From Chitinophagaceae bacterium (GTDB taxonomy: Bacteria > Bacteroidota > Bacteroidia > Chitinophagales > Chitinophagaceae): a stretch of DNA of 39,412 bases. Of this stretch, positions 17,926 through 20,747 are shown one piece after another (position 1 is the stretch's first letter; each line of letters begins with the position of its first letter). The notes beneath the pieces were generated by a model. That model had not been told where the DNA came from, did no database searches, and worked only from the letters and a program-made list of their open reading frames with translations. The translations under genes were made by a program, and so were the position numbers. The stretch lies in the NCBI GenBank assembly GCA_025363075.1, contig JANYEP010000093.1, positions 1 to 39,412 on the forward strand, read 5' to 3'.

Positions 17926-19485
17926 TTAGTGCCTTCTGCTTTTGCTGGCTTTGTATTTATCGTAAATGATGGTTGCCATTGGTTTTTCGTAAACCTTGCT
18001 TTCAACCCACGAAATAATGTCTAAGTAAGCGAACGACCTTGTTTCAAAACGATTTTTTTCAAGGTATTTTATTTTCTCTAAAAGCTTTACAAACTCTGGC
18101 TTTAGCTTGCGTGGCGATATATTGAACGTATCTCTTAAAAATCTAAAGATTGCTTCTTCAACAACAGTTAAATTTTTCATTTTTGCCATAAATCTATACA
18201 CAGATTTTGTTAAAGATTCAATGATAGAATCATTGCCTAATTCGTAGTGCGACATTAAATGCAACAACCTTGCATAGCATTGCAAATCGTAACGTAAATC
18301 TTCGTGGGCATTGATAATGATGTTTAAATAATCTATGGCTTTGTCGTAATCTCCATTGCCAAAATGCAGCGAAGCAATTTTATAGTTAAACACCACAATC
18401 CTGTGCCTGTCAACAAAAAGTGCATACTCTTTCAGCTCTTCCTTTAAGGATGGCACAAGCTTCAAACCCTCGCTGAACGTGCCTTTCATTAAGTGCTGGT
18501 TAACTTTTGCACTATTGATATAGATGGAGGTATGAACCCTGAAGTTGTCATGCAATTGTGCAGTATCTGTTTTAAAAAATTGTTCAAATTGATATAACAC
18601 AACCTCAAATTTTTTAAAATGCCTCAAGTCAAACAAGGCATTCAGCAGCGTGTGCATTCCCTTAATGTAATGTCCTGTTTCTACTGCTACCATTGATTTG
18701 TCTTCCACAAATAAATCAATCCACTTTTGGCTGTACCTGTAATACATTAAGAAATCCTGACGAATAAATGCGTACCAGCAATAGCTTTGGTAGAAGTACA
18801 ATTTTTCGTAAAAACCATCCACATCATTTTCACTTGGTGGCACATAGCTTTTAAAATATTCCTTTATATCCTTTTCGTCAGCTACATTTCTTGCGTGTCC
18901 ATATTGCACATACCAACGATACAACATCAATGCAAGGTTTGAGAGGCGAGTTACCCTATCAATATGCCCACTTATTTCAAGTGCTTCATTAGTAAGCACA
19001 GCAGTTCTATCTATGGAGCTGCGTGTTATATGCAGTGTTTCAATTTTTTTTTCCAAAGAAATTACCTGAGCCATAAAGTTGAACTTCTGGTTGGCTCTTG
19101 CTACTTCCTTTGCTTTTTCTAAAATCTTGAGTGCCTGAATCTTTAATCCTTTGTTGTATAAAAGGCGGGCATAATCGAGGTTTTCGCTCAACTGCAAGTC
19201 TATGTTTTCAGTGGTTTTAAGCAAACGAAGGGCTGATAATATTTGCTTATATAAATGCGATTTTAAGTTTGCCAATTGTGGCTTTTCTACAGATGGAAGT
19301 TTCTTCAGCAAAAGCTTTTCGTCATAATCATCTGGTAATTTATCCAACACATCAAAAAGCTGCACAATTTTTAAATCATCTTTTGCCGAACTTCTTTTTA
19401 TATAGAGCTTAAAATGCCGCTTCTCTGCCTTTTGCAAAGATTTTATTAACTGAAATAATATATCTGTTGAGCGGTTGGACATCAT
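17926..19485 (-). CDS. Large all-helical protein of unknown function (TPR-like)
   Basis: The 519 residues have no signal peptide or membrane helix. The sequence is helical throughout, with TPR-like pairs such as NLDYARLLYNKGLKIQALKI, YKIASLHFGNGDYDKAIDYL and LQCYARLLHLMSHYELGNDS. The N-terminal part (ILFQLIKSLQKAEKRHFKLY, then KSHLYKQILSALRLL) is a pattern I associate with conserved Bacteroidota cytoplasmic proteins without assigned role. It probably serves as a protein-binding scaffold. The gene is alone on its transcript, with a 350-bp gap upstream. Confidence 0.75.
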   Translation of the reverse strand: MMSNRSTDILFQLIKSLQKAEKRHFKLYIKRSSAKDDLKIVQLFDVLDKLPDDYDEKLLLKKLPSVEKPQLANLKSHLYKQILSALRLLKTTENIDLQLSENLDYARLLYNKGLKIQALKILEKAKEVARANQKFNFMAQVISLEKKIETLHITRSSIDRTAVLTNEALEISGHIDRVTRLSNLALMLYRWYVQYGHARNVADEKDIKEYFKSYVPPSENDVDGFYEKLYFYQSYCWYAFIRQDFLMYYRYSQKWIDLFVEDKSMVAVETGHYIKGMHTLLNALFDLRHFKKFEVVLYQFEQFFKTDTAQLHDNFRVHTSIYINSAKVNQHLMKGTFSEGLKLVPSLKEELKEYALFVDRHRIVVFNYKIASLHFGNGDYDKAIDYLNIIINAHEDLRYDLQCYARLLHLMSHYELGNDSIIESLTKSVYRFMAKMKNLTVVEEAIFRFLRDTFNISPRKLKPEFVKLLEKIKYLEKNRFETRSFAYLDIISWVESKVYEKPMATIIYDKYKASKSRRH

Positions 19486-19536
19486 TAAAAAATTTACTCA
19501 AAAATCAATGCCAGCAATGGTTTTAACATTTTTTTA

Positions 19537-19569
19537 AAAGTTTTGCCATAATAAATTATGGCAAACTTT
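19537..19569. repeat. Inverted repeat between divergent transcripts
   Basis: Arms 19537-19552 and 19555-19569 are complementary over 15 bp with one bulged T and a 2-nt centre (core TTTGCCATAAT and its complement). It lies 52 bp from the 19485 start and 26 bp before the -7 element of the plus-strand RNA, so it could be an operator for either or a hairpin. Confidence 0.55.
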
Positions 19570-19594
19570 AGTTTTTTAACCTGCGTGACTTGTC

Positions 19595-19602
19595 TATTTT
19601 TG
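19595..19602 (+). promoter_or_regulatory. -7 promoter element of the psuG leader RNA
   Basis: TATTTTTG matches TAnnTTTG and predicts transcription from about 19609. A convincing -33 element is not seen. Confidence 0.45.
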
Positions 19603-19608
19603 ACTTAT

Positions 19609-19754
19609 CAAATTCAAAATGGCTAGCAATCGAGAGAAAGAGAATCGTTAGAGGCCGAGAAATACAAAATTTTAGTTCTTTAGAACTCAGAACTTTTTTC
19701 ATATGGCAAGCAATCGTTAGAGGCTGCCCTGTTTCTACAGGGGAGCCCTTTTTT
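19609..19754 (+). ncRNA. Structured RNA with tandem motif and intrinsic terminator (candidate psuG riboregulator)
   Basis: The region contains two related segments. ATGGCTAGCAATCG (19619-19632) and AATCGTTAGAGGC (19643-19655) are separated in the first, while in the second (19703-19726) the same pieces are fused as ATGGCAAGCAATCG running into TTAGAGGC. The second segment can fold as GGC-A-AGC (705-711) against GCTGCC (723-728), with the conserved AATCGTTAGAG as loop. That pairing uses the 5' arm of the terminator at 19722-19754, so the two folds exclude each other. psuG begins 81 nt further on. It could be a riboswitch-like attenuator or a free-standing small RNA; no known family was recognised, and 6S RNA was considered. 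Ends are inferred. Confidence 0.55.
19722..19754 (+). terminator. Intrinsic terminator of the psuG leader RNA
   Basis: Stem GGCT/AGCC and CCCTGT/ACAGGG with one G-G mismatch and a TTCT loop (19722-19747), followed by C and six T (749-754). Its 5' arm is shared with an alternative hairpin. Confidence 0.8.
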
Positions 19755-19835
19755 ATTTAGGCGTTGCAAAGAAAGGAGCTTATAGTTGAATTGCGAAAAA
19801 AAACTTTATTTTACATCTTTAACGCAATCTAAATA

Positions 19836-20747
19836 ATGTCAAACACTTTCTTCAAAATTCATCCTACAATTCAAGAAGCATTAGAAAATAATATGCCTGT
19901 TGTTGCTCTTGAAAGCACTATTATTTCTCACGGAATGCCTTATCCCAAAAACGTTGAAACAGCCTTGTCTGTTGAAAATATTATCAGGGATAATGGTGCA
20001 ATGCCTGCAACTATTGCCATCATTAATGGTAAATGTTGCGTTGGATTATCGGCAGATGAAATTGAAACTTTTGGCAAAGAAAAAGATGTGTGGAAAGTGA
20101 GTCTGCGTGATATGCCTTATGTAGTGAGTAAAAAACTTTTTGGAGCTACAACCGTTGCTGCCACTATGCGTATTGCAGCAATGGCTGGCATAAAAATATT
20201 TGTAACTGGTGGCATTGGTGGTGTGCATCGTGGTGCAGAAACAACAATGGATATTAGTGCCGACCTTACAGAAATGGCTCAAACAAGCGTGGCTGTTGTT
20301 TCTGCTGGCATTAAATCAATTTTAGATATTGGATTAACATTGGAATATTTAGAAACATTGGGGATTCCTGTGGTTACTTACCAACAAGAAATATTCCCAA
20401 GTTTTTATTCAAATGAAAGCAATTTTAAAACACCGTTGCAATTAGATTCTGCAAAAGAAATTGCAACAATGCTTAACACAAAATGGACTTTAGGTTTAAA
20501 TGGTTCTGTATTAATTGCAAACCCGATTCCAAAAGAAGTTGAAATGCCAGCAACACAGGTGGAACAGCATATTCAAGAAGCGTTGGCAGCCGCAGAGGCA
20601 AATAATATTAAAGGCAAGGAAGTAACACCTTTTATACTTCAATATATTGCTAAACACACTGGTGGTGAGAGTTTAGAAGCAAATATTGCTCTTATAAAGC
20701 ATAACGCAAAGTTGGGTGCAGAAATAGCAAAAGAAATAGTAAAATAA
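19836..20747 (+). CDS. psuG: Pseudouridine-5'-phosphate glycosidase
   Basis: Splits the C-glycosidic bond of pseudouridine 5'-phosphate to uracil and ribose-5-phosphate. The 303 residues match the family in length and motifs: ALESTIISHGMPYPKN (24-39), MPATIAIINGK, VTGGIGGVHRGAETTMDIS, the catalytic-site SAGIKSILDIG and GVPVVTYQ-like GIPVVTYQQEIFPSFY. The usual partner, pseudouridine kinase, is not adjacent. An RNA with a terminator lies directly upstream and could control expression. A degenerate repeat (20751-20777) follows the stop by 3 nt. Confidence 0.95.
   Translation: MSNTFFKIHPTIQEALENNMPVVALESTIISHGMPYPKNVETALSVENIIRDNGAMPATIAIINGKCCVGLSADEIETFGKEKDVWKVSLRDMPYVVSKKLFGATTVAATMRIAAMAGIKIFVTGGIGGVHRGAETTMDISADLTEMAQTSVAVVSAGIKSILDIGLTLEYLETLGIPVVTYQQEIFPSFYSNESNFKTPLQLDSAKEIATMLNTKWTLGLNGSVLIANPIPKEVEMPATQVEQHIQEALAAAEANNIKGKEVTPFILQYIAKHTGGESLEANIALIKHNAKLGAEIAKEIVK

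Follow-up and report, generated by a model that had tools for sequence, protein, structure and literature searches.

Organization of the locus

The window (i.e. the whole stretch of 39,412 nucleotides that was analysed, from a member of the Chitinophagaceae) contains a predicted small RNA gene lying between psuG and the divergent gene of a 519-amino acid helical protein (Table 1). The initial annotation had assigned a -7 element to this RNA, and TATTTTTG does fit TAnnTTTG, the consensus of the -7 element in Bacteroidota. Sequences of the form TAnnTTTG are enriched between about -80 and -140 relative to the core of the RNA (180 copies). The strong intrinsic terminator noted at the same time is also present, as a hairpin and U tract that end 81 nt before the ATG of psuG. 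The box TTTTGCCATAAT is surrounded by a palindrome (19538-19570) in the divergent promoter region. With up to two mismatches the box occurs in 36 of the 103 free-standing loci described below, compared with 2.1 after shuffling.

Table 1. Features of the small RNA locus and its neighbours, in window coordinates.
Feature	Position	Strand	Remarks
Gene of 519-aa all-helical repeat protein	17926..19485	-	Divergent from the small RNA; distantly related, over its full length, to the BT_2802 family
Upstream box TTTTGCCATAAT	19541..19552	+	Lies in a palindrome; may be a regulator site
Putative small RNA -7 promoter element TATTTTTG	19595..19602	+	Fits TAnnTTTG; start at ~19609
Small RNA gene, predicted transcript	19609..19754	+	From promoter fit and terminator; ~146 nt
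5′ module, half-motifs GGCTAGCAATCG and AATCGTTAGAGGC with an insert between	19619..19655	+	Related to the core
Core, 27 nt, nearly invariant	19696..19722	+	Proposed seed for mRNA start regions
Terminator hairpin, loop UUUCUA, G+C-rich	19722..19747	+	Stem covariation
Terminator U tract	19749..19754	+	From sequence
Possible separate psuG promoter, 3′ of the small RNA terminator	19785..19817	+	GTTGAATTG at 19785 and TTTTACATC at 19809; putative reading
psuG, 303 aa	19836..20747	+	Pfam Indigoidine_A, PF04227, E 2.4e-131; outside the small RNA system

A 13-nt motif had been seen twice here, and both 19643-19655 and 19712-19724 are indeed exact matches to AATCGTTAGAGGC; a third match of up to two mismatches does not occur in the window. 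Shuffled windows contained a mean of 0.50 such matches, and two or more in 10/100 shuffles; the real pair is exact. ATGGCTAGCAATCG lies at 19619-19632 and ATGGCAAGCAATCG at 19703-19716. Both motif copies are thus present, but they are not equivalent members of a tandem. In the second copy GGCAAGCAATCG and AATCGTTAGAGGC overlap to make one unbroken stretch, which hardly varies among relatives; in the first an insert separates GGCTAGCAATCG from AATCGTTAGAGGC.

No Rfam family reached its gathering score in the window, in agreement with the earlier statement that no known RNA class could be recognised, and the region 19480-19900 gave only chance-level matches up to E 10. No tRNA gene was found in the window. 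The fold stability of the window RNA was not above that of shuffled sequences (z = -1.01).

A multicopy RNA family in the Chitinophagaceae

The sequence 19693-19754 is one member of a small RNA family that exists in multiple copies. BLAST against 59 related genomes found the 3′ half alone repeated several times per genome. Only strong rows are counted here, since the E limit was permissive (10) and gave some match in all genomes. The pattern TTCATATGGCAAGCAATCGTTAGAGG, with up to three mismatches, is present in 127 of 195 Chitinophagaceae genomes and 68 of 101 genera, and absent from 68 genomes; the reversed control matched in none. There are between 0 and 8 copies per genome, with tandem copies spaced by ~380-560 nt in genomes G010, G025, G080, G103 and G016. 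The genome of the window has two copies, one of each main kind: that of the window, on contig C77, and a second on contig C199, which follows a lipoprotein gene.

Records with exact matches comprise at least 119 stretches, the titles of which include Niabella, Niastella, Segetibacter, Hydrotalea, Sediminibacterium and Filimonas, or are unspecific. At least three carry discordant titles, namely Flavobacterium, Pedobacter and Beijerinckiaceae, the last being an alphaproteobacterial family. The record titled Beijerinckiaceae (L164), which has a core copy, was paired with G169:C161 of the family of the window; its title is apparently wrong or the assembly mixed. A covariance model applied to a phylum sample of 247 genomes, with stricter filters that may miss distant forms, gave matches in five of the eight listed family genomes; among the 239 genomes from other families six matched weakly (E 6.4e-5 to 0.009). 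A home outside the Chitinophagaceae was rejected, as GCAAGCAATCG is absent from the one match read in each of those six genomes (the first of two in G349).

The core UUUUCAUAUGGCAAGCAAUCGUUAGAG is 27 nt in length, with at least 1.7 bits at each position in 184 unique copies and variable flanks; these copies were chosen with up to four mismatches in 26 nt, so that divergent copies are missed. On its 3′ side the 184 copies have a hairpin with a loop of the UUUCYA type and then a U tract, which a script rule scored as clear in 180 of the 208 distinct copies. Covariation of the stem was assessed in 35 gap-free rows out of 58 aligned. Paired cells amounted to 94% against 82.5 on shuffling, cells changed on both sides to 49 against 16.8, and the covariation score to 0.49 against 0.27 (0/500 shuffles in each case). 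Two further measures were not significant, i.e. the pairs with two-sided change (6/9; 40/500) and the pair types (138/500). Thermodynamic folding of the 208 copies gave a mean unpaired probability of 0.51 for the core and 0.49 for the preceding 90 nt, with values above 0.6 in 32 copies. Folding thus predicts no greater openness for the core than for the sequence 5′ of it.

Degenerate half-motifs are found 5′ of the core in 66 of the 103 free-standing copies, compared with 2/103 after shuffling. They occur in 3/36 copies of the lipoprotein type, in 4/56 others and in 2/10 viral copies. The first motif copy of the initial annotation is such an upstream module of the free-standing type.

By genomic setting the 208 distinct copies divide into 103 divergent from a homologue of the helical protein, 36 following a lipoprotein-like gene, 10 viral and 59 other, ten of the last having less than 400 nt of upstream sequence. 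For the 103 copies the helical-protein homologue (51-100% identity) is encoded upstream in the opposite orientation, no more than 2.5 kb away; the distance is 131-304 nt in 90 and 604-1876 nt in 13, tandem copies being among the latter. The 36 are located 15-201 nt 3′ of a gene whose small lipoprotein-like product has the form MKK...C and repeats rich in D/T/K. We note that this tiny D/T/K-rich lipoprotein family carries the core in its 3′UTR (L003, i.e. C199 of the same genome as the window, and 35 further loci), often with a sigma-factor-like gene opposite. On clustering the neighbours, the divergent gene was read by eye as an ECF sigma factor at 27 of 184 copies.

The 519-aa protein aligns with NF058569 (BT_2802) at E 4.3e-44 and 151.4 bits, residues 7-506 falling on model positions 4-501/502. 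This is below the curated cut-off of 550 bits, so that it is a full-length relative and not a member. Pfam gave sub-threshold TPR matches only. A structure model based on 29 homologues is all-helical (mean pLDDT 84.8, pTM 0.77); a fold search with it placed TPR-type superhelices closest among solved folds (best E 2.3e-3, none below 0.001). No solved structure related by sequence to the protein was found. A homologue with E <1e-100 was present in 29/29 RNA-positive genomes (of the 127) and in 10/34 RNA-negative genomes (Fisher 9e-10, uncorrected for relatedness), the negatives being 33 by the pattern and G003 by weak BLAST. In both of the homologue-bearing negatives to which the covariance model was applied (G070 and G105) there is a diverged RNA copy beside the helical-protein gene, so these two are misses of the pattern. 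Second helical-protein homologues, each with one in-frame TAA, were observed at G028:C1:10948-12492 and G030:C1:1932761-1934302. We take BT2802 to be RusR, adjoining the ribose locus BT2803-2809. In the parts of PMC12596196 available, RusR and the locus BT2803-2809 are named and BT2802 is not.

An exact 21-mer of the family is found in ten IMG/VR contigs, two of which (L196 and L199) are identical around the core. By eye, the viral terminator stems are unlike those of the hosts. ARAGORN placed a tRNA within ~40 nt of the copy in L195, L197, L201 and L204 and a doubtful one ~120 nt from the copy in L200, with none in five contigs; in L197 two core copies lie around a tRNA-Phe. No match up to E 1 was found in the named phage records of INPHARED.

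Complementarity to the starts of susC-type genes

The complement of the core, CUAACGAUUGCUUGCCAUAUGAAAAA, resembles the start of a gene for an exported protein. From the 56 susC-type genes (TIGR04056) listed per genome we took 50 for G012, 50 for G080, 50 for the RNA-negative G009 and 30 for G196; the script predicted starts for 49, 50, 48 and 28 of these respectively. G009 was the one usable RNA-negative genome, G029 being set aside with just one susC gene over the cut-off. Compared with shuffled seeds, GGCAAGCAAUCGUUAG was predicted to pair better with susC starts in G012 (z = -4.9, 0/100) and G080 (z = -2.5, 0/100), with a borderline result in G196 (z = -1.6, 5/100). There was no such effect in the RNA-negative G009 (z = +0.3, 66/100), nor with segments inside susC (z = 0.1, 1.0 and 0.2).

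Exact 8-mer complements are present at 30 of the 127 susC starts of the three RNA-bearing genomes, against a shuffled mean of 5.71 and maximum of 19 (0/300). By genome there were 17/49 in G012 (0/300), 7/50 in G080 (11/300, weak alone) and 6/28 in G196 (1/300), compared with 3/48 in the RNA-negative G009 (51/300) and 0/88 inside susC. The pooled count differs from those of G009 and of the interior of susC with Fisher values of 0.009 and 3e-8 respectively. Sites of 7 nt were counted separately on the two sides of the start, as conservation of signal peptides may account for those in codons 2-5. Those ending 0-8 nt before the ATG number 15/127 (shuffled 1.96, 1/300) and those in codons 2-5 number 21/127 (shuffled 2.5, 0/300), against 0/48 for both in G009, where the chance level is however lower (shuffled 0.26 before the ATG, compared with ~0.8, and 0.69 in codons 2-5). 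Complementarity of the RNA to susC starts in RNA-bearing genomes, and its absence in one RNA-negative genome, is thus supported in silico.

One predicted duplex, AUUGCUUGAGUAUGAAAAA, extends across the start codon in L239 of G012 (-19.7 kcal/mol), and AUUGCUUG is found shortly 5′ of the AUG in the predicted susC leaders L239 and L364 of that genome. The segment UUUUUCAUAUGG alone was not significant in any genome, with a similar result in the RNA-negative G009. In the genome of the window itself the full core showed no significant predicted pairing with 20 TonB-type genes (z = -1.4; 20/200 shuffles equally good). Six susC genes there exceeded the cut-off, and three of them (L330, L331 and L335) have short complements near the start.

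The targets may not be confined to susC. Among 275 other genes of G012, taken from 20 arbitrary stretches, there was no shift in mean energy (z = -0.8, 20/100). Exact 8-mer complements were nevertheless present in 15 of these start regions, against 5.05 on shuffling (0/300), and this excess indicates that the target set may be larger. Two of the 15 are susC; ten others were scanned with Pfam, of which nine matched, i.e. Sugar_tr, FecR (3), GH20 (2), AraC, Cons_hypoth698/KdgT and MFS. Several TonB, SusD and sugar genes are also found among 19 control genes from the same stretches, so the enrichment of target classes is just suggestive. In the FecR anti-sigma genes L252, L255 and L259 of G012, 8-mer complements of the core fall in the interval from -47 to +19 around the predicted start. 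A search of G012 for LSU rRNA as a possible pairing partner found none.

Possible function and relation to known RNAs

We think it probable, on the basis of these comparisons, that the RNAs constitute a FopS-like, trans-acting multicopy family of the Chitinophagaceae that represses glycan import at the starts of susC-type genes; other glycan-acquisition mRNAs are perhaps repressed at their start codons too. The locus in the window would be a free-standing gene, and the hairpin would serve to terminate the small RNA. The seed GGCAAGCAAUCGUUAG would pair immediately upstream of the start of mRNAs encoding susC-type TonB importers, or slightly within it, with UUUUUCAU lengthening the duplex across the start codon and the lysine codons that follow (AUGAAAAA). 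The ribosome would thereby be kept off the paired start, and glycan import repressed. Signals could enter through the BT2802-like protein at the free-standing copies, and through the lipoprotein 3′UTR copies, some of which lie beside ECF sigma factors. Since the promoter and 5′ part vary among copies, a shared set of targets could answer several signals. We infer that the RNA is expressed, that it pairs and represses, and that such signals control it.

These elements might be combined into one circuit dedicated to glycan import. The BT2802-like protein would sense a sugar signal, and would then either activate the divergent small RNA gene or bind the repeated core in the RNA, thereby determining the amount of free small RNA that represses susC mRNAs; phages would carry the RNA beside their tRNA genes in order to hijack the circuit and shut the outer-membrane importers while infecting the cell. 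As a whole this scheme is tentative and rather doubtful.

Alternatively the core could be a binding site for the BT2802-like or another RNA-binding protein, with the RNA acting as a sponge or scaffold and pairing being secondary. The near-invariance of all 27 nt even in viral contigs, the additional half-motifs of the free-standing copies and the uneven distribution of the helical-protein homologue between RNA-positive and RNA-negative genomes are consistent with such a role. However, complementarity to susC that is missing in the RNA-negative genome would not be expected, and most copies of the lipoprotein type lack extra motifs; we consider a protein site unlikely. The known protein sponges CsrB and RsmY have a GGA motif. 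They resemble the free-standing copies in having a repeated motif in one small RNA, but the core motif differs from GGA, and most lipoprotein-type and other copies are without an extra motif.

It is improbable that the motif is an element of the 3′ end (functioning in stability, processing or with a termination factor) that has no regulatory targets. Its position directly preceding the terminator in free-standing genes, 3′UTRs and viral contigs would suit this, but 0 to 8 per genome is few for a general element, and the susC result would be left unexplained.

A tiny reading frame in the core, ATG GCA AGC AAT CGT TAG (MASNR), might encode a leader or signal peptide. The frame is open in most copies, and the first copy in the window would read MASNREKENR. 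A coding role was rejected as very improbable: the ATG becomes ATA in copies of G007, G129, G151 and G217, conservation at third codon positions and in the U-rich stretch that precedes the ATG equals that of the rest, and the frame is shifted in the 5′ copy of relatives.

The initial annotation had read the region as a riboswitch or attenuator of psuG. Of this, a regulatory RNA with a genuine terminator survives; control of psuG was rejected, and we give it scarcely any credence, in spite of the terminator and the 81-nt distance to the gene. psuG is 3′ of just 2/208 copies (2/181 with at least 1.2 kb downstream), that in the window and one other in the same genus. Homologues adjoin unrelated genes, a result that the annotation had itself named as speaking against its reading. 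The GGCA/TGCC pairing required for the hairpin proposed to compete with the terminator is possible in 1/208 copies, and psuG may have a separate promoter. The fallback of the annotation, a free-standing small RNA, was in the right direction, but nothing points to the 6S RNA that it gave as the example: no 6S model of Rfam reached its gathering threshold anywhere in the window, and none matched in 19480-19900 even with the limit relaxed to E 10.

The preferred reading of a trans-acting repressor of susC-type genes can be compared with the FopS RNAs of Bacteroides thetaiotaomicron. In the sections of PMC11697453 available these are described as multicopy small RNAs with binding sites close to the start codon of susC mRNAs and with reported repression of translation, and a copy is reported in a Caudovirales phage. 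Several paralogous copies per genome are found in both families, as are a conserved stretch with a Rho-independent terminator, pairing near the susC start codon (predicted in the present case), 3′UTR-derived copies (one such member in FopS) and copies in a phage (FopS) or in IMG/VR contigs (the present family) (PMC11697453). The families differ in that there are 12-15 FopS copies per Bacteroides genome, whereas here 127/195 genomes of another bacterial family have up to 8, and in that the FopS seed is at the 5′ end, whereas ~85 nt of variable sequence and half-motifs precede the core in the window copy (PMC11697453). No FopS hit appeared when 19480-19900 was compared with Rfam up to E 10, in a library that may lack a FopS model. 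Further traits of FopS are an R1′ seed predicted to be single-stranded and binding by RbpB. The present family is not classed as FopS, from which its layout 5′ of the seed differs; to the extent of the in silico comparison it would act in the manner of FopS.

GibS of B. thetaiotaomicron likewise has a terminator and a long conserved seed across the start codon of metabolic mRNAs, but as described in part of PMC7366714 it is a single intergenic small RNA, the 5′ part of which contains two seed regions, and its targets are other than susC. The multicopy LhrC and Qrr RNAs are similar in being paralogues with overlapping target sets (from the portion of PMC11697453 available), but belong to other phyla.

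Among open-licence PMC papers there was no match to the core, whether written as DNA or as RNA. Searches there for Chitinophagaceae small RNAs, and for noncoding RNA motifs, covariation and multicopy RNAs in Bacteroidetes, returned unrelated material only, and Chitinophaga was named in none of the matches listed for base pairing between small RNAs and SusC.

The published control of glycan uptake by small RNAs that we found concerns gut Bacteroides. If a large family of environmental bacteria has a second set of multicopy RNAs with similar architecture and similar predicted targets, then regulation at susC starts by paralogous small RNAs may have arisen repeatedly, or may be ancient and diverge quickly. 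It may also be asked, in view of the copies in viral contigs, what use a small RNA of the host type would be to a virus. The fixed helical-protein neighbour is a candidate for the input to the system, and the invariant core gives predictions of base pairing that are directly testable.
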